Shown here piece by piece: positions 2,220 to 24,700 of a stretch of 24,760 nucleotides of DNA. Under the pieces are notes generated by a model. The model was not told the DNA's origin. It saw nothing but the letters and a program-made list of their open reading frames with translations, and did not search any database. This stretch comes from a virus. Position 1 is the stretch's first letter, and each line of letters opens with the position of its first letter. Both the position numbers and the translations under genes were made by a program. The stretch is from positions 1 through 24,760 of the IMG/VR virus record IMGVR_UViG_3300021170_000067; one strand, written 5' to 3'.

Positions 2220-2451
2220 TACTTACATTAGCCTTCGCAGCAGCATATTGAGAAGAGAAGACGCCTTCATCAAAAGCGCACTGCATACTAAATGCTATCT
2301 TACATGCAGAATCAAAATTCCAAAATCTCATATTCAATGCGACCCACTCCGATTTACCTATCGCTGTATGCTTGCGCCCATCATCATATGCAGACCAGAC
2401 TTCCCAATGAAGTCCAACTCGTTTTGCAAAAAATAGTGTTTTCAGGATCAT
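2209..2451 (-). CDS. Small aromatic-rich protein, 80 aa, unknown function
   Basis: The ATG at 2451 overlaps the portal stop codon (ATGA), so it is probably translated by ribosomes finishing the portal. The gene is visibly more AT-rich than its neighbours. The product has several Trp and Phe residues in its first 50 positions, two cysteines, and an Ala-rich tail, with no clear membrane segment. I see no known domain. Its low GC hints at recent acquisition, possibly together with the phosphatase that follows. Confidence 0.6.
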   Translation of the reverse strand: MILKTLFFAKRVGLHWEVWSAYDDGRKHTAIGKSEWVALNMRFWNFDSACKIAFSMQCAFDEGVFSSQYAAAKANVSNAA

Positions 2452-5400
2452 TGAACCACCCTCAAAAACTTACCCTCACGTCCCGGCATGCGGTCCGGAA
2501 TATACCACATCCCGTCCTTTGCCTGGCGGGCGCCGTCCATGGGCGGCTGTTCGTTGCCTTGTAACTGACCGCCGGGCGACTGCTGGCCATTTGATGGCGA
2601 GCCCTGCCCGTTCGCCGCCCCAGCATCGTCATCCGTGTCAGCCGAAAGGTCCGCCTGATTGGCCTGCTCGACTAGATTATAGACGTGCTCATGCCCGCGC
2701 GCCTCGATCTCGTGCTCCATCTGGGCCTTTTGCTGCGGGGTCAACAGCAACTTGGACAGCGCGTCGATCTGTGCCTTCATCCGGTTTGTCTCGGCGTTGA
2801 ACGCATCGACGTCGCGCTTTTCCTCTCGGCCCTTCATGCTCAAATGCATCTCGGCGATCTTCTGCATCAGTTCCGAGTTGAGCGCTATCAATCGCTTGTT
2901 CTGCTCCTGGACGGCCTGCAGCTGCGGATTGACATCCTCATCGAAGAGATACGGCTTGTTCGCCTTGATCTCTTTCTGCAGCCGCTCCTGGATTTTGTCC
3001 GCTCCGGGGAAATCGCCGTACTTGAACAGAAGATCGCCGGCAACCGTGATCAACTCGTTGTTGCCCTGGAGCATGCGCTCCATCGCGTCCCACCCCTGCT
3101 GACGCTGCGTGGCATAGTCCGGGCCCGGGTCGGACACGCACTCGTATTCGCCGATCGCGGGGTTGAAGGCGAGTTGAACTGCCTCCTCGTCCTCTTTTTC
3201 GTGTTCAAGCTCGCGAACCGCTTCCTCCTGGTTCGGGTCGATCTTGATCCAGCGCTTCTCGCCATCCTCGTCCAGGATATGCAACGTGCGCTCGGTATCA
3301 TAGATATTCGGGATCAGATCCAGCAGCTGCACGCCGATGTGGCGGAGCATGTCCGAGAAATGCTCAACGAAGTGATACGTTGCGGTGTCGCCCTGCGCTT
3401 TGCGTTCCGTGATCGCCTTGCCGCTCGCCGCCGCGTCCGGTTTGGCCTCACCCATCTGATTCTCGAACTGGCCCGAGATCATCATGCTGTGCCGCTCGGC
3501 GGTCTGCATGCCCCGCTCGTGGGCTACGGACGGCTTTGGCGGATCGAGACGGAACGGTGCAGCGATCTTCTGCGCTTCGCCCTCGGCCTCATCATCAAGG
3601 TCGTTGTAGAGGATGACGGGATAGCCAAGGATGTTGATTGTCTTGTATTGCTCCTGCCCCTCGATTGCCCTGGCCGGCGCCATGAATGGCGACTTCGGCT
3701 GCAGCGCAACGATCTCGACCGCCATGGAATTGTGCGTCGGAATCATTCCATTGCCAGCAAGGAACAGGTGATTTGGCGTATCAACGCCAATGCACTTGAC
3801 TGGAACAGATGGAATTTCTTCGACCGAAACAATGCCGACACGCTTAGTCCGCCTCCATTCGGTTCCACGCGCTTTCGACTGAGCCTTGCGCTTGCGTGCA
3901 AGCTTGAAAACAGGCGTATCAGGATCGGCGGTAAAGCTGACCCGGTATGTGATCCCGGAAGTATATTCCTTCCCGTTGGGGAAAGTTTTTCTTGCGGCCT
4001 TCTGCTCGGAACAAGTCGCCTTGATGCCCAAGCTTCGGAGCAGTTCAAGAATCCCCTCAATGAGCTTCGGGTTCTTGTTGGAGAAAGAGCACTGGTTGAC
4101 GGACTTCGCGAAATGTCCGTCCGTATCCATCAGGCCCTGAAGCAGGGACAATCTTTGGCTAGTTGATCCGCGCAAATAGATTGCAGGTATTTTCTTCCGA
4201 TTTTGGCCTCGGACCCCGAGTGCGGTCAGTTTCCCACGAATATCACAGATAGTGAATCGACCTACGGTCCCGCCATTGTACAATTTCGATGTAGATAGAT
4301 CGTACCCGCAATCCTCGATATTCTTGCGCGTCTCATCGATGTCCTGAATGCAGGACGTTATCTGCGGCTCGCGCGAAGTCCCGTCTCCCAACCAAAGACC
4401 GAACACATATGGGTCAATTGGTAGATGAACTTCGCTGGTTTCGAGCGATGGAGACAACTTTATGAAATGCTTGGACCGAACCAAATCGGCCGTAGCGATC
4501 ACACGATTTGACCAGTTTTGTCCGCGAGAATTGCGCTTGCCACGCTCTTCGACACTCCACAGATGCCCACCATCTGCAACGATTTCCGTCCCATTGCTGA
4601 ATTTAACGCGGAAGCATTGACGCTCTCGGAACACACTGCTTTCGCCGAGCACTCGGCAGGGCTTGCCATTTTCATCAAAGACAAGGTCACCGGCCCGAAT
4701 TGCCCCGATCGTCGTCCAGCCCGTCGGCGTTGGGATGCGAGTATCCAACGCGAGCGGGGCGTTGTAGTTCAGCATCCGGTTGGCATCGATCAGCGGCCGG
4801 GTGTGACCCTTAAGGTCCAACGTCCCGTCAATCACAAGCTCGCGCCCCACACAGCGGCAGATCGGGATGTACTTGCCGGCCCAGTCACCACGCTCGATGA
4901 CGGTATCGCCCGCGATCAGGAACCATTCCACCTTGTCGTCAAGCACGCTGCGGCTGCCGCCCTCGAGCTTGCCAGCCTCGATGTCCTCCATCAGCTTTTT
5001 ATAGAGTTCTTCCCCGCTTTCTTTCCTGATCTCAGAGGCCAGCTTTTCGATCTCGTCCCCGCTGTCCTGCTTGAACCAGATCAGCCGGTCCCGCTTTTCC
5101 TTCTTGCGGAAATATTTGGCCAGCATGATCTCCTTGTCGGAAATCCAGTCTGCAAAGCCGTTGTCGAGCGGAGCCGTGCCAACCTTGTTCTTATAGCGCG
5201 GATATTTCCGGTTGAACTCCTTGCGCGGCATCCGTTCGAACACGAAGCCGAAATTAGCATCGGAGCCATCAGTCTCCCTGATCCAAGGGTCGAGATAAAC
5301 GCCAGTAGGATCGCGCGAGGCCTTGAGGTAGATTTCCTGGTTCCGGGTCCGGCTCGACACATAGGCCGTCTCGATCAGGATGTACCCGATTCCACCGTCG

Positions 5401-5819
5401 ACCTGCTGCTCGGCAACCTTTCTATAGGCGGAGCTCGCCTTCGAAATATATTCGATTCGGCGTATGACGCTCTGCATTATCTCGGCGGATGCGTATGAGG
5501 CCTTTCCACCAGTGGGCCTGATCCTTATACCGTAGCCATTTTTCGACAGCGAGTTGATAATAAGATCGTTGTGGACCCGCGTGTTGTTGATCGTCAGGCA
5601 TGGGAGGTCTGATCCATCTCCGGTGCGGCTCTGGTATATGTTTGCCGGCCACTGCCAGGCGTTGCGGCTGTCACCATTGGCGAACTTGATGTCCTCACGG
5701 ATGCGCTCGTCCTGGGTGCCCTGCCAGTCCTTGCAGGCCTTCCAGCGCTCTACTGCTTCCTGGACGATGCCGGCATCGCCCTTGACCGGCTCGGTGTCTT
5801 CGGCGGCGCCGTAGAGCAT
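2448..5819 (-). CDS. P22-type portal protein precursor interrupted by an intein
   Basis: This 1123-aa precursor should splice to a 780-aa portal, close to the size of P22 gp1. The portal forms the dodecameric ring through which DNA enters and leaves the head and docks the terminase. Support for the family includes the N-terminal region with R-I-R-P-T-G (about 99-104) and the joined extein sequence at the splice point, which reads R-M-L-N-Y-N-A then S-M-A-V-E-I-V-A-L-Q-P-K-S-P-F, matching the conserved N-Y-x-x-S and A-L-x-P-K-x-P-F motif of P22-like portals. The C-terminal third is helical, then Gln/Gly/Pro-rich and probably disordered (about 1050-1110). It follows TerL and a zinc-ribbon gene. 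The start abuts the stop of the latter by one base. The intein is listed separately. Confidence 0.93.
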   Translation of the reverse strand: MLYGAAEDTEPVKGDAGIVQEAVERWKACKDWQGTQDERIREDIKFANGDSRNAWQWPANIYQSRTGDGSDLPCLTINNTRVHNDLIINSLSKNGYGIRIRPTGGKASYASAEIMQSVIRRIEYISKASSAYRKVAEQQVDGGIGYILIETAYVSSRTRNQEIYLKASRDPTGVYLDPWIRETDGSDANFGFVFERMPRKEFNRKYPRYKNKVGTAPLDNGFADWISDKEIMLAKYFRKKEKRDRLIWFKQDSGDEIEKLASEIRKESGEELYKKLMEDIEAGKLEGGSRSVLDDKVEWFLIAGDTVIERGDWAGKYIPICRCVGRELVIDGTLDLKGHTRPLIDANRMLNYNAPLALDTRIPTPTGWTTIGAIRAGDLVFDENGKPCRVLGESSVFRERQCFRVKFSNGTEIVADGGHLWSVEERGKRNSRGQNWSNRVIATADLVRSKHFIKLSPSLETSEVHLPIDPYVFGLWLGDGTSREPQITSCIQDIDETRKNIEDCGYDLSTSKLYNGGTVGRFTICDIRGKLTALGVRGQNRKKIPAIYLRGSTSQRLSLLQGLMDTDGHFAKSVNQCSFSNKNPKLIEGILELLRSLGIKATCSEQKAARKTFPNGKEYTSGITYRVSFTADPDTPVFKLARKRKAQSKARGTEWRRTKRVGIVSVEEIPSVPVKCIGVDTPNHLFLAGNGMIPTHNSMAVEIVALQPKSPFMAPARAIEGQEQYKTINILGYPVILYNDLDDEAEGEAQKIAAPFRLDPPKPSVAHERGMQTAERHSMMISGQFENQMGEAKPDAAASGKAITERKAQGDTATYHFVEHFSDMLRHIGVQLLDLIPNIYDTERTLHILDEDGEKRWIKIDPNQEEAVRELEHEKEDEEAVQLAFNPAIGEYECVSDPGPDYATQRQQGWDAMERMLQGNNELITVAGDLLFKYGDFPGADKIQERLQKEIKANKPYLFDEDVNPQLQAVQEQNKRLIALNSELMQKIAEMHLSMKGREEKRDVDAFNAETNRMKAQIDALSKLLLTPQQKAQMEHEIEARGHEHVYNLVEQANQADLSADTDDDAGAANGQGSPSNGQQSPGGQLQGNEQPPMDGARQAKDGMWYIPDRMPGREGKFLRVVQ
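3729..4757 (-). mobile_element. Class 3 intein with LAGLIDADG homing endonuclease inside the portal gene
   Basis: The intein covers portal residues 355-697 (343 aa). Block A begins P-L-A-L-D-T and has no Cys or Ser at position 1. Block B contains H-L-W (His419, Trp421). Block F has Cys676 in V-K-C-I-G-V-D, and block G ends T-H-N with Thr695 and Asn697, followed by Ser698 as first residue of the C-extein. Trp in block B, Cys in block F and Thr in block G form the WCT triplet that defines class 3 inteins, which start splicing from the block F Cys. Between blocks B and F lie two LAGLIDADG motifs, G-L-W-L-G-D-G-T (474-481) and L-L-Q-G-L-M-D-T-D-G (559-568), with the acidic residues kept, so the homing endonuclease may be active. 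The insertion point is a conserved portal motif, as is usual for inteins. Confidence 0.93.
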
Positions 5820-20865: not shown

Positions 20866-20989
20866 CACAACACCACACCGGACGCCACACCGCTACACGA
20901 CACTGCACCACACGACGCTACAGCCTCACAACACGCCACTTCACGTCACAGGACCGCACGTCCCAACACCGCACCGCACGACACACCAC
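20866..20989 (+). repeat. Pentamer array A: CAC plus two free bases, 25 units
   Basis: Read in steps of five, triplets starting at 20866 give 25 units: 19 are CAC and the other six differ by one base (GAC, CGC, CAG or CCC). One spacer, at 20924-20926, has three bases; all others have two, and the spacer bases vary freely. The array runs from just after the previous stop to just before the RBS of the 21004 gene. It cannot encode a fixed peptide because its period is not a multiple of three. Confidence 0.9.
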
Positions 20990-21003
20990 AACGGAGAACG
21001 ACC

Positions 21004-21567
21004 ATGTATCGAGCCCACGTCATGATCAAAGGCATCGCACCTCTGTCTCAGTCCCGAATGCACGGCACGCCATTCCTCGATGGGGAGTCCCATGAGGACT
21101 ACGACCTCCGCACTTGGCGCGAGAAGTGCAACTTCGATGAAAGCGGCGTCGTCTACGTGCCGGCAATGGCGCTCAAGCAGGCGATGGACGCTGCCGCGAA
21201 GCGTCTTTCGATCCCGGACCCCGACAACAAGCGCGCCAACTTTACGAAGTATTTCGCCTCGGACGTGATCTGCGAACAGCACTTGAGCATCGGCATCCGC
21301 AAGGACGACATGGCCGGCATTACGATTTCGGCCAATGTGGACGGCGTGCGCGGCAGTGGCAAGCGCGTCCCGCGCCGGTTCCCGCAAACCCCTGAGTGGC
21401 GCGGATCGACCACGTTCCTGGTGATGGAGGAAAAGATCAAGCCGGACATCTTCGAACGCGTGCTCGCTTGCGCGGGTCGGTCAATCGGCGTTGGACAATT
21501 CCGGCCCGAGCGCGGCGGCCTCAATGGCCGGTTCGAAGTCCTCGGAGTGAAATACGAGAAAATCTAA
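21004..21567 (+). CDS. 187-aa conserved-type phage protein flanked by pentamer arrays
   Basis: An A-C-G-G-A-G site ends array A just before the ATG at 21004. The protein starts with a beta strand and G-I-A-P-L-S-Q-S-R, has V-Y-V-P-A-M-A-L-K-Q-A-M-D-A-A-A-K (50-66), K-R-V-P-R-R-F-P-Q-T-P-E-W-R-G (120-134), and a C-terminal glycine-rich loop I-G-V-G-Q-F-R-P-E-R-G-G-L-N-G-R-F (161-177). It resembles a recurring phage family of unknown function. The glycine-rich loop near the end recalls RAMP (Cas5/6/7-type) RNA-binding folds; this is a hypothesis only. Arrays on both sides make self-regulation or array binding a prime question. Confidence 0.8.
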   Translation: MYRAHVMIKGIAPLSQSRMHGTPFLDGESHEDYDLRTWREKCNFDESGVVYVPAMALKQAMDAAAKRLSIPDPDNKRANFTKYFASDVICEQHLSIGIRKDDMAGITISANVDGVRGSGKRVPRRFPQTPEWRGSTTFLVMEEKIKPDIFERVLACAGRSIGVGQFRPERGGLNGRFEVLGVKYEKI

Positions 21568-21574
21568 TGTGCGC

Positions 21575-21727
21575 CACCCCACGTCACAACACGACATCTC
21601 ACGGCACGGCACCTAACCTCACATCACGCCATGACACTTCACGATACCGCATCACACAACACCCGACTGCACTTCACAACACCGCACGGCACATGACAAC
21701 ACGGCACGTCCCTACAGCACAACACCC
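21575..21727 (+). repeat. Pentamer array B: CAC plus two free bases, 31 units
   Basis: Triplets every five bases from 21575 to 21725 give 31 units with no phase slip. Twenty are CAC and the other eleven differ by one base; mismatches gather at the right end. Spacer bases vary. The array fills the gap between the 187-aa gene and the AAAGGAG site (21728-21734) of the 21745 gene. It has the same unit and strand as array A but is not a copy of it. Confidence 0.92.
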
Positions 21728-21744
21728 AAAGGAGACACAATCCA

Positions 21745-22215
21745 ATGCTGACCTTTGAACGCTCCCCGGACACCGAGGCCGCCGTGGTGGCCTTGCGGGG
21801 CATAAACGAATTGACCTCCTACGAGACGCTTGCGAAGCGCGCCGGCCTCAAGGTCGCGCGGCTCAAGGGCGTGCTGCCCTCCGCGCGCCGCATCCTGCGG
21901 GCAGAGAAAATGCTGTTCGGCATCGAGCGCGGCATCGGCGTTCGCCGGATGGCCGACCTCGATAAGGTGCGCAAGTCCGAGGACACGAAAAAGCGCATGT
22001 CGCGCACCGCTAAGCGGGGCATTAAAGAGCTTGAAACTATCGAGCACTTTGAATTGCTCGCGCCGCCGGATCAACTTGTCGTCACTACTAACCGGACAAT
22101 CTTCCATCTGATCCAACAGCAGAGCGGTGTGAAAAACGCCGCTATCGCAGCCGCGTCGCCCACAGCGGCCCCGACTGGTCTTGCGGAGAACCTTGTGAAG
22201 CTTGGGCGGAAATAG
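21745..22215 (+). CDS. 156-aa protein, possible nucleic-acid binder, after array B
   Basis: A strong AAAGGAG site lies ten bases before the ATG. Residues about 24-50 read L-T-S-Y-E-T-L-A-K-R-A-G-L-K-V-A-R-L-K-G-V-L, in the manner of a helix-turn-helix, followed by a very basic segment (R-R-M-A-D-L-D-K-V-R-K-S-E-D-T-K-K-R). The C-terminal third is Ala/Thr/Pro-rich. It pairs with the 187-aa gene by having the same kind of leader, so both probably answer to one factor. The function is not known. Confidence 0.75.
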   Translation: MLTFERSPDTEAAVVALRGINELTSYETLAKRAGLKVARLKGVLPSARRILRAEKMLFGIERGIGVRRMADLDKVRKSEDTKKRMSRTAKRGIKELETIEHFELLAPPDQLVVTTNRTIFHLIQQQSGVKNAAIAAASPTAAPTGLAENLVKLGRK

Positions 22216-22241: not shown

Positions 22242-22754
22242 ATGAAACAACAGCTTGAAAGGATTTACGAGGAAATGGAAGGGTCCGACGCTTCGCTCAC
22301 CTACTCCGAGCGCCACGGGATCACCTCCGCTGCGGTGCTGACTGTGATCGATGACGAGACGGCCGCCGCGATCGTCGATCACCTTGAACCGCGCATCGCG
22401 GGAAAGACCGTCGTTGAGATCGGCGGCGGGATCGGCCTGCTGGCGCTCCACATGGGCGCGGTCGCCAAGCGCGTCTACTGCATCGAGGCCAACCCGATGT
22501 GGTCATGGACGTTCGCCGAGGTGTTCCTTCACAAGAAGCCGCGCAACGTCTCGTTTCTATTCGGCGCCGCCGATGAGTTCCTAGGCGCGATCAAGGGCGA
22601 CGTGGCGATCTTCTGTACGCACTCAGGCGTCCAGGCGATGGGCCTAGTCGCCGCGCAATTCGCGTCGGTCACGATCGATGTGTACGGCGAGATCATCAAA
22701 GGCAATCCCGAGGCTTTCGACGCGACCGCGCGCAAGCTCCGGGAGTTTGCGTAA
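22242..22754 (+). CDS. Class I SAM-dependent methyltransferase-like protein
   Basis: The 170-aa protein has motif I, V-V-E-I-G-G-G-I-G-L-L-A (57-68), and an acidic end of strand 2, C-I-E-A-N-P (82-87), which are the SAM-binding features of a Rossmann methyltransferase. The D/N-P-P-Y catalytic motif of amino-DNA methyltransferases is absent; I-F-C-T-H-S-G is at that place. So it may modify RNA, protein or a small molecule. It is short, with no target-recognition domain. It lies 26 bp after the basic 156-aa gene. Confidence 0.8.
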   Translation: MKQQLERIYEEMEGSDASLTYSERHGITSAAVLTVIDDETAAAIVDHLEPRIAGKTVVEIGGGIGLLALHMGAVAKRVYCIEANPMWSWTFAEVFLHKKPRNVSFLFGAADEFLGAIKGDVAIFCTHSGVQAMGLVAAQFASVTIDVYGEIIKGNPEAFDATARKLREFA

Positions 22755-23520: not shown

Positions 23521-23831
23521 GTGCAGATCAGCAAAAGGGTACGTTCTTCAACAGGTGGGAGGGCGTCATCAAACAGATCGACCTGAAAGTGTCGAAGCGC
23601 AAGGGCGCCAAGAGACCCGATCCCTTCATGGAAGGCATCGCAATCGCGCTCGCGGATTTAGTCCGTCTTTATGATCAGCCGAGCATGGCGGCGGGTGTCC
23701 TCGCCGGCCACGGCTTCGCCCTCGCCGATTTCAAGGGTGTCGATCCCTACGACTTGAACGTCATCCGGAAGCTCTATCGAACGGAGAGCGTTTTGATCGA
23801 CGCTAAGGGCGCGTCAGCGAGCGACAAATGA
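23517..23831 (+). CDS. Helical protein, 104 aa, unknown function
   Basis: The start at 23517 overlaps the stop of the 44-aa gene (ATGA). The product is largely helical, with F-N-R-W-E-G-V-I-K-Q-I-D-L-K, a Lys/Arg-rich loop, and G-V-L-A-G-H-G-F-A-L-A-D-F. It ends in an ATGA overlap with the radical SAM gene, so the two are probably made together and may work together. No known domain. Confidence 0.7.
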   Translation: MSADQQKGTFFNRWEGVIKQIDLKVSKRKGAKRPDPFMEGIAIALADLVRLYDQPSMAAGVLAGHGFALADFKGVDPYDLNVIRKLYRTESVLIDAKGASASDK

Positions 23832-24700
23832 GCCTGCTCGACAAAGGAGAATGGATCAAAGGCGTTGCGCACTGGCGCGACGGCGATACCGCATTTATCT
23901 CGGTCGCCTTCACTTGGCGCCTGCCAGAGGCCCGCCGGCTGGTCGACTACTATCGCGCGATAGGCTGCACGAAGGTCCGCATCGGCGGCCCCGGCACGTT
24001 CACGATGCGGAAGTATTTAGCCGACGTTGACGCGGAGGTCGGCGGCAGCATCCCCGACGTGATGGCACGCCACAACCCGATGGCGACCAGGGCGAGTTAT
24101 GGGTGTCCCGTCGGCTGTCACTTCTGCATCGTCCCGAAGATGGACGGCAAGACGTTCACCCTCCTGCCAGACTTCCCCGTGCGGCCGATCCTCTGCGACG
24201 ACAATCTGTCCGCTCTGCCCGCCGACTATCAGCGGCACATCGTCGATCGCTACACCCGCGCTGGCGTGCCGCTGCTTGACGCCAACTCAGGCTTTGCGCC
24301 CGATACCTTCAATGAGGACACCTTCGCGCTGTGGCGCCCGATCATCAAAGGCCCTTGGCGCTTTGGCTTCGATGAGGCAAGCGAGGGCAACCACGTCGAG
24401 AAGGTGTTCCGCATCCTCAAGGGCGTCTCGCCGCGGCGCAAGCAGGTATATACGATGATCGGCCACGAGCCTTTCGACGTGTGCATGGATCGCATCCGGC
24501 GCGTGATCGGCTGGGGCGGAGAGCCCTACGCGCAAGCCTTCATCAAGCTCAACGCGATCAAAAAGGAGCCAGTCGTTCGCCACGACTGGTCATCTCAAAA
24601 GCTCCGCTGGGTCCAGCGCTGGGTGAACCGCCACCTCTGGCGCAAGACAAAGTTCGAGGACTACGACCCGTCCGCCAAAACCAGCCGCATGGCGCCGTAG
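23828..24700 (+). CDS. Radical SAM enzyme
   Basis: The 290-aa protein has the radical SAM cluster motif C-P-V-G-C-H-F-C (Cys93, Cys97, Cys100), followed by I-V-P-K-M-D-G. The N-terminal 90 residues include a Rossmann-like strand and G-G-P-G-T. The centre and C-terminus follow the usual partial TIM-barrel order, with V-Y-T-M-I-G at about 206-211. It would make a 5'-deoxyadenosyl radical; the substrate is unknown. A role in base, tRNA or cofactor chemistry is possible. There is no B12-binding or SPASM domain visible. It is tightly coupled upstream. Confidence 0.88.
   Translation: MSLLDKGEWIKGVAHWRDGDTAFISVAFTWRLPEARRLVDYYRAIGCTKVRIGGPGTFTMRKYLADVDAEVGGSIPDVMARHNPMATRASYGCPVGCHFCIVPKMDGKTFTLLPDFPVRPILCDDNLSALPADYQRHIVDRYTRAGVPLLDANSGFAPDTFNEDTFALWRPIIKGPWRFGFDEASEGNHVEKVFRILKGVSPRRKQVYTMIGHEPFDVCMDRIRRVIGWGGEPYAQAFIKLNAIKKEPVVRHDWSSQKLRWVQRWVNRHLWRKTKFEDYDPSAKTSRMAP

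Follow-up and report, generated by a model that had tools for sequence, protein, structure and literature searches.

Phased CAC-NN arrays flanking a Vipr homologue are probable guide RNA tracts of a phage-borne VIPR locus

We analysed a 24,760-nucleotide stretch of viral DNA (IMG/VR record IMGVR_UViG_3300021170_000067, positions 1 to 24,760; hereafter the window) in which two arrays, A and B, flank a single gene. In both arrays the triplet CAC recurs every five bases with two variable bases (NN) in between. The flanked gene, vipr (21004..21567, + strand, 187 amino acids), encodes by profile match and structure prediction a Cas7/RAMP-fold homologue of Vipr, the protein of the Viral Interference Programmable Repeat (VIPR) system proposed in a recent preprint (PMC13142463, version of June 2026). 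Array B is followed by a vap-like accessory gene (21745..22215, + strand, 156 amino acids). We consider it very probable that the arrays are guide RNA (vrRNA) tracts and that the locus is a phage-borne VIPR system built on a CAC scaffold.

Array A has 19 exact CAC triplets among 25 at period 5 and array B has 20 among 31. Pooled, 39 of 56 triplets are CAC and the remaining 17 are each one base off, exactly as counted in a preliminary description of this DNA, and the top phased CAC score elsewhere in the window, on either strand, is 4/25. Array A opens with a block of 11 units in one phase (20866..20920, +; NN string AA.CA.CG.GC.AC.TA.GA.TG.CA.GA.TA), slips at the six-base unit CAGCCT (20921..20926, +) and continues with 13 units that are one base out of phase with the first block (20927..20991, +; NN string AA.GC.TT.GT.AG.CG.GT.AA.CG.CG.GA.AC.AA). 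Each block is a probable vrRNA guide tract, and we refer to the second as guide A2. Array B consists of 27 in-phase units, counting CAT and other one-base variants (21575..21709, +), which probably form one or more guide tracts, and of a degenerate extension of about four one-base-off units (21710..21727, +). The probable ribosome binding sites (RBSs) of vipr (GGAG, 20993..20996, +) and of the vap-like gene (AGGAG, 21730..21734, +) come next after arrays A and B.

Phase and pair statistics were judged against 2000 dinucleotide shuffles. The earlier claim that the five-base period exceeds what composition would give stands for the phase of array B, where 20 of 23 CACs share one phase (above all 2000 shuffles, maximum 13), and for the CAC pairs five bases apart in array A (13, shuffle maximum 10). 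It does not stand for the phase count of array A, which at 11 is not above the shuffle maximum of 13 because the slip splits the array. Predicted structure in the tracts is no greater than in shuffles. A scan of the window and five relatives against Rfam gave no match at gathering score, and no sigma-70 promoters were found around the window arrays.

The window Vipr belongs to PHROG 4652 (function unknown) and to no Pfam or NCBIfam family, and searches with it for near-relative proteins in GenBank phages and IMG/VR returned none. A profile of 17 family members matched a single PDB chain under E 0.001, the 'SUSP1 Vipr protein' (36pp_D, E 1.7e-6), and also matches vipr in the SUSP1 genome itself. 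The AlphaFold2 model of the protein (predicted local distance difference test score 93) has its best fold matches in type VII Cas7 (Foldseek E 2.6e-7) and Csm3, and the fold comparison gave a VIA Z of 11.6 with a root-mean-square deviation of 4.4 over 155 residues. The preliminary description had named the neighbouring gene product as a likely binder of the arrays, and the predicted RNA-binding RAMP fold is in keeping with this. We assign the vap-like gene from its recurrence, its family sitting behind arrays in 22 collected instances, from a model with weak winged-helix matches in the N-terminal part, and from a weak profile match.

VIPR comprises Vipr, described as an ancestral RAMP, together with vap and the guide RNAs; each guide has 9-16 GGY/NN repeats followed by a 3′ tail, and its NN dinucleotides pair with DNA while one base is skipped between pairs (PMC13142463). 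The tracts of SUSP1 were shown experimentally to function as guides (PMC13142463), and our inspection of the SUSP1 genome places GGY-NN tracts ahead of vipr and behind vap, on the same strand as vipr. The window tracts are intergenic and lie on the vipr strand of a viral genome, as VIPR membership requires. This layout, with tracts flanking the genes, matches SUSP1 and the published description and supports the VIPR reading. The window shares with the SUSP1 and Pseudomonas fulva type II systems a RAMP-fold Vipr homologue, a vap-like second gene, a viral location and hypervariable NN in period-5 tracts. It differs in that its arrays abut each RBS, array B is placed between the two genes, the tracts are longer and probably fused, and the targeting rule of this clade is a putative one. 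Relative to the published GGY scaffold, CAC (CAY) is a variant. The preprint words the triplet as GGY 'or a related consensus' (PMC13142463), a phrase defined in the supplement under which CAC may already be catalogued. Beyond this preprint, our literature search yielded nothing relevant.

The arrangement recurs widely. Scanning IMG/VR for six exact CACNN units returned at least 120 stretches, many with free spacers and with two or three arrays separated by 550-700 bases, and some that are fixed-spacer microsatellites, (CACAG)n and (CACCT)n (L016, L050, L113). The genes behind the free-spacer arrays form two families of about 190 and 165 amino acids that include both window genes, indicating a recurring unit of array, first gene, array and second gene, often with a further array. 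Across 117 unique CAC tracts the position frequencies are C 0.96, A 0.95 and C 0.95, followed by two positions without strong preference, and the modal length is 11 units; several tracts of the window and its relatives exceed 9-16 units and are probably fused or staggered guides. Protein searches alone added 80 loci, and around all 109 Vipr homologues examined we looked without bias for a triplet of any kind conserved every five bases. Arrays scoring at least 7/12 lie beside 103 of the 109 homologues, as against 0 of 169 control windows taken from these contigs; since the CAC loci of the pattern scan were picked by their arrays, array presence there is by construction, and among the protein-found loci 74 of 80 have such an array. 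The relatives with CGC, GGC and CAC arrays (L122-L201) have the same gene family, period and mostly the same gene order as the window, whereas the first and middle scaffold bases vary by clade and some of their arrays are multi-unit and hairpin-tailed.

Two further loci extend this sampling. Pseudomonas phage LESphi2 (L213, OQ594955.1, 2200-3228), resident as a prophage in P. aeruginosa LESB58, carries a Vipr homologue annotated as hypothetical with GGC-NN tracts upstream. An Azospirillum oryzae plasmid (L214, NZ_CP054617.1, 3623-4387) gave a weak partial Vipr-like match whose flanks are without a clear long array. A profile search of genome contigs gave two metagenome-assembled genomes (MAGs).

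In related phages the phase and the triplet are kept and the two spacer bases vary freely, which bears out the earlier view that selection acts on the phased triplet and that the arrays are not recent tandem duplications. Three loci with nearly identical Vipr proteins and the same scaffold (L127, L131, L132) have different NN strings. One locus, L178, contains 14 CGC-NN tracts, like a guide bank, and most of them close with AA units followed by a hairpin, CCAGCCCC-GCGA-GGGGCTGG; compensatory changes maintain its stem in L166 and L201. In the relatives the tails stand 3′ of the tracts on the vipr strand, as would be predicted for a guide read from the sense strand, and the order in L178 of a variable part and then a structured tail on this strand corresponds to the published vrRNA design. 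The abutment of arrays and RBSs noted earlier applies to both window arrays; among the relatives, arrays also occur downstream of genes and as tandem tailed units. The NN dinucleotides, previously treated as filler, are most likely guide information.

Several of the guides appear related to one another. Three related phages (L151, L161, L178) have a common guide with substitutions (GT.TC.TC.AT.CA.CT.GA.AA...), as if tracking one diverging target. Within single loci, near-duplicate guides that differ in few NN bases occur in L178 (the tracts at positions 1157 and 1478, counted from the start of the vipr open reading frame), L136 and L011, which suggests guide duplication and divergence. CAC and CGC loci share few guides once near-identical contigs and the L151/L161/L178 group are set aside. 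A further long inverted repeat (GGCACCTCCGACCG...CGGTCCGAGGTGCC) in the constant part of L178 matched no Rfam family; sub-threshold microRNA and small RNA matches in this locus were taken as chance.

A working model follows the published system. The + strand tracts would be transcribed together with the vipr and vap genes, and Vipr, a Cas7-like RAMP, would coat the RNA with one subunit per five bases, each gripping a CAC triplet. The NN dinucleotides would then face outward and jointly base-pair with double-stranded DNA belonging to a competing element, with one base of the target skipped between successive NN pairs, and binding would repress the target with the aid of the winged-helix vap protein. 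The class 1 CRISPR effectors type III Csm3 and type VII Cas7 share the fold, the glycine-rich loop and the expected protein multimer running along a guide RNA. We do not assign the locus to class 1 CRISPR-Cas, as the window has no CRISPR repeats or contiguous spacers, the guide information would reside in dinucleotides, and no other cas genes were recognised among the window proteins scanned.

The one target candidate comes from guide A2. Scanning viral contigs with its units 2-9 and one skipped base matched 91 stretches, of which 76 agree with the guide at 21 or more of its 26 bases; L235 and L279 agree at 24. Nearly all matches are antisense to a conserved motif, (S)RRFTRLTNAF, of IS1-like transposases; as annotated for A2 the motif is SRRFTRLTNAF, fitted with the published one-nucleotide skip. 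The skipped base falls at the wobble position, where it is also reported to fall in known VIPR targets (PMC13142463). By a rough estimate that assumes 10-35 Gb of viral DNA and a computed composition, 0.04-0.14 stretches with a perfect ten-unit match are expected by chance. Because the search covered several guides and the matches represent one gene family, we grade this sequence match as suggestive of a target. In the viral contigs, the L151/L161 guide gave one unrelated match, the L136 guide five matches with unconvincing extension, and the L178 and L011 guides no match. A guide of L204 matched 5 genomes in the family of a Roseomonas MAG against about 4 control matches, which is chance level, and a skip-rule target search inside the fetched loci gave no signal.

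A number of observations weigh against assigning the window to VIPR. The published GGY triplet is absent and CAC stands in its place, the window itself shows no recognisable hairpin tail, and the vap-like protein matches SUSP1 vap weakly (profile E 0.019, best domain 0.13). Target searches with several guides yielded only the A2 candidate, and the full 13-unit A2 guide with up to 3 mismatches found no match in an alphaproteobacterial class sample of 142 genomes. The bulk skip-rule statistic over all guides is weak (ratio 1.11, z 2.2 at skip 1), with no excess at skips 0 and 2. We are less confident about the particulars of targeting for this clade than about VIPR membership. For the triplet, the series CAC, CGC, GGC and GGT among homologues argues for a related consensus.

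Other explanations of the arrays were weighed on the same evidence. If the tracts were autoregulatory RNA operators, the RAMP-like protein would coat the leaders of its own and the next gene and repress translation in the manner of T4 gp32 or TRAP, with NN neutral. Arrays that stop just ahead of each RBS, an RNA-binding fold in the neighbouring protein and tracts with no more predicted structure than shuffles would all fit. We nevertheless regard this as unlikely, given that the tracts of relatives are numerous, also lie downstream of genes and mostly have their own hairpin tail, and that published experiments establish the homologous tracts of SUSP1 as guides (PMC13142463). Where a tract adjoins an RBS, autoregulation could still be a secondary function. 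The preliminary description had drawn a parallel to the leader sites bound by TRAP, which reads (G/U)AG repeats. The window arrays and these leader repeats of trp operons both consist of RNA triplets about five bases apart with free spacers near an RBS, and the RNA-level analogy to repeated-triplet binding was right. The proposed TRAP-like masking of the RBS is not upheld, as the triplet is CAC, the neighbouring protein is a predicted Cas7/RAMP-fold Vipr homologue, the units are far more numerous and the arrays of relatives also stand behind genes.

Its two other proposals, Rho loading and a DNA-level scaffold, fare worse. Cytosine-rich, G-poor leaders could load Rho or, being unstructured, enhance translation, in line with their composition and lack of predicted structure; neither function needs a strict period of five, the GGC and GGT scaffolds of relatives are G-rich, and we judge the idea highly improbable. 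A DNA scaffold or an array of iterons, with GTG-NN read from the opposite strand, is about equally improbable: it would exploit the half-turn spacing of the triplet in DNA, whereas the arrays keep to the vipr strand as in SUSP1, the tails follow on the 3′ side of the same strand and show RNA-stem covariation, and the accompanying protein has an RNA-binding RAMP fold. Neutral decay of a CACNN microsatellite might be suspected from the (CACAG)n and (CACCT)n repeats that surfaced in the same pattern search. Those repeats have a fixed spacer, and the arrays described here are confined to two gene families; decay, which we credit with almost no probability, is refuted because the triplet is about 95% conserved while NN is near random.

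Within the VIPR reading, the scaffold can be followed across clades. By locus, with near-identical contigs tallied separately, the triplet is CGC in 54, CAC in 41, GGC in 11 and GGT in 2. On a quick tree of 88 Viprs with moderate support the scaffold label requires 14-15 changes, far below shuffled labels and well above single origins, and the triplet switches repeatedly on it. The array before vipr in L048 and L122, 70 units mixing CAC and CAT, suggests that the third scaffold base is a pyrimidine and not always C.

One residue appears to track the middle base. Residue 165 lies in the glycine-rich loop GVGQFRPERGG and is Gln in the window (codon 21496..21498, +). All 52 middle-G loci have Arg at this position, and the CAC loci have Gln (20), Arg (11) or Ala (2); all Gln165 loci carry the CAC scaffold. 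Among nine non-overlapping CAC/CGC tree pairs, six differ at this position, always as Gln/Arg, and no other alignment column performs as well across these pairs. The six of six informative pairs give p = 0.03 (two-sided) before correction for column number, making this sequence correlation a strong lead, short of proof. Arg would read G and Gln would read A. The CAC loci with Arg (the GGFYGRF group) must read the scaffold otherwise. A tentative extension, which we hold to be somewhat less probable than its opposite, is an orthogonal scaffold family (C/G, then A/G, then pyrimidine) in which Gln165 or Arg would select the middle A or G, and in which A2 would be aimed at the widespread conserved IS1-like transposase motif. 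On this same tentative footing, clades would switch scaffold via few protein changes and thereby shield their guides from rival Viprs.

VIPR is a months-old proposal for a CRISPR ancestor with a new, noncontiguous guide code. The window locus was reached from its repeats alone and independently supports a link between Vipr proteins and period-5 arrays. The scaffold triplet is shown to be evolvable, and residue 165 is a named candidate for how Vipr reads its guide, so that the recognition rule and the possible existence of orthogonal guide systems become directly testable.

Elsewhere in the window, the gene after vap (22242-22754) encodes a small methyltransferase-like protein with a weak KsgA/Erm match, and a radical SAM-like protein (PHROG 9298) is encoded at 23828-24700. 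On the opposite strand (2448-5819, -) lies a gene for a P22-like portal protein with a LAGLIDADG homing-endonuclease insertion, probably an intein.
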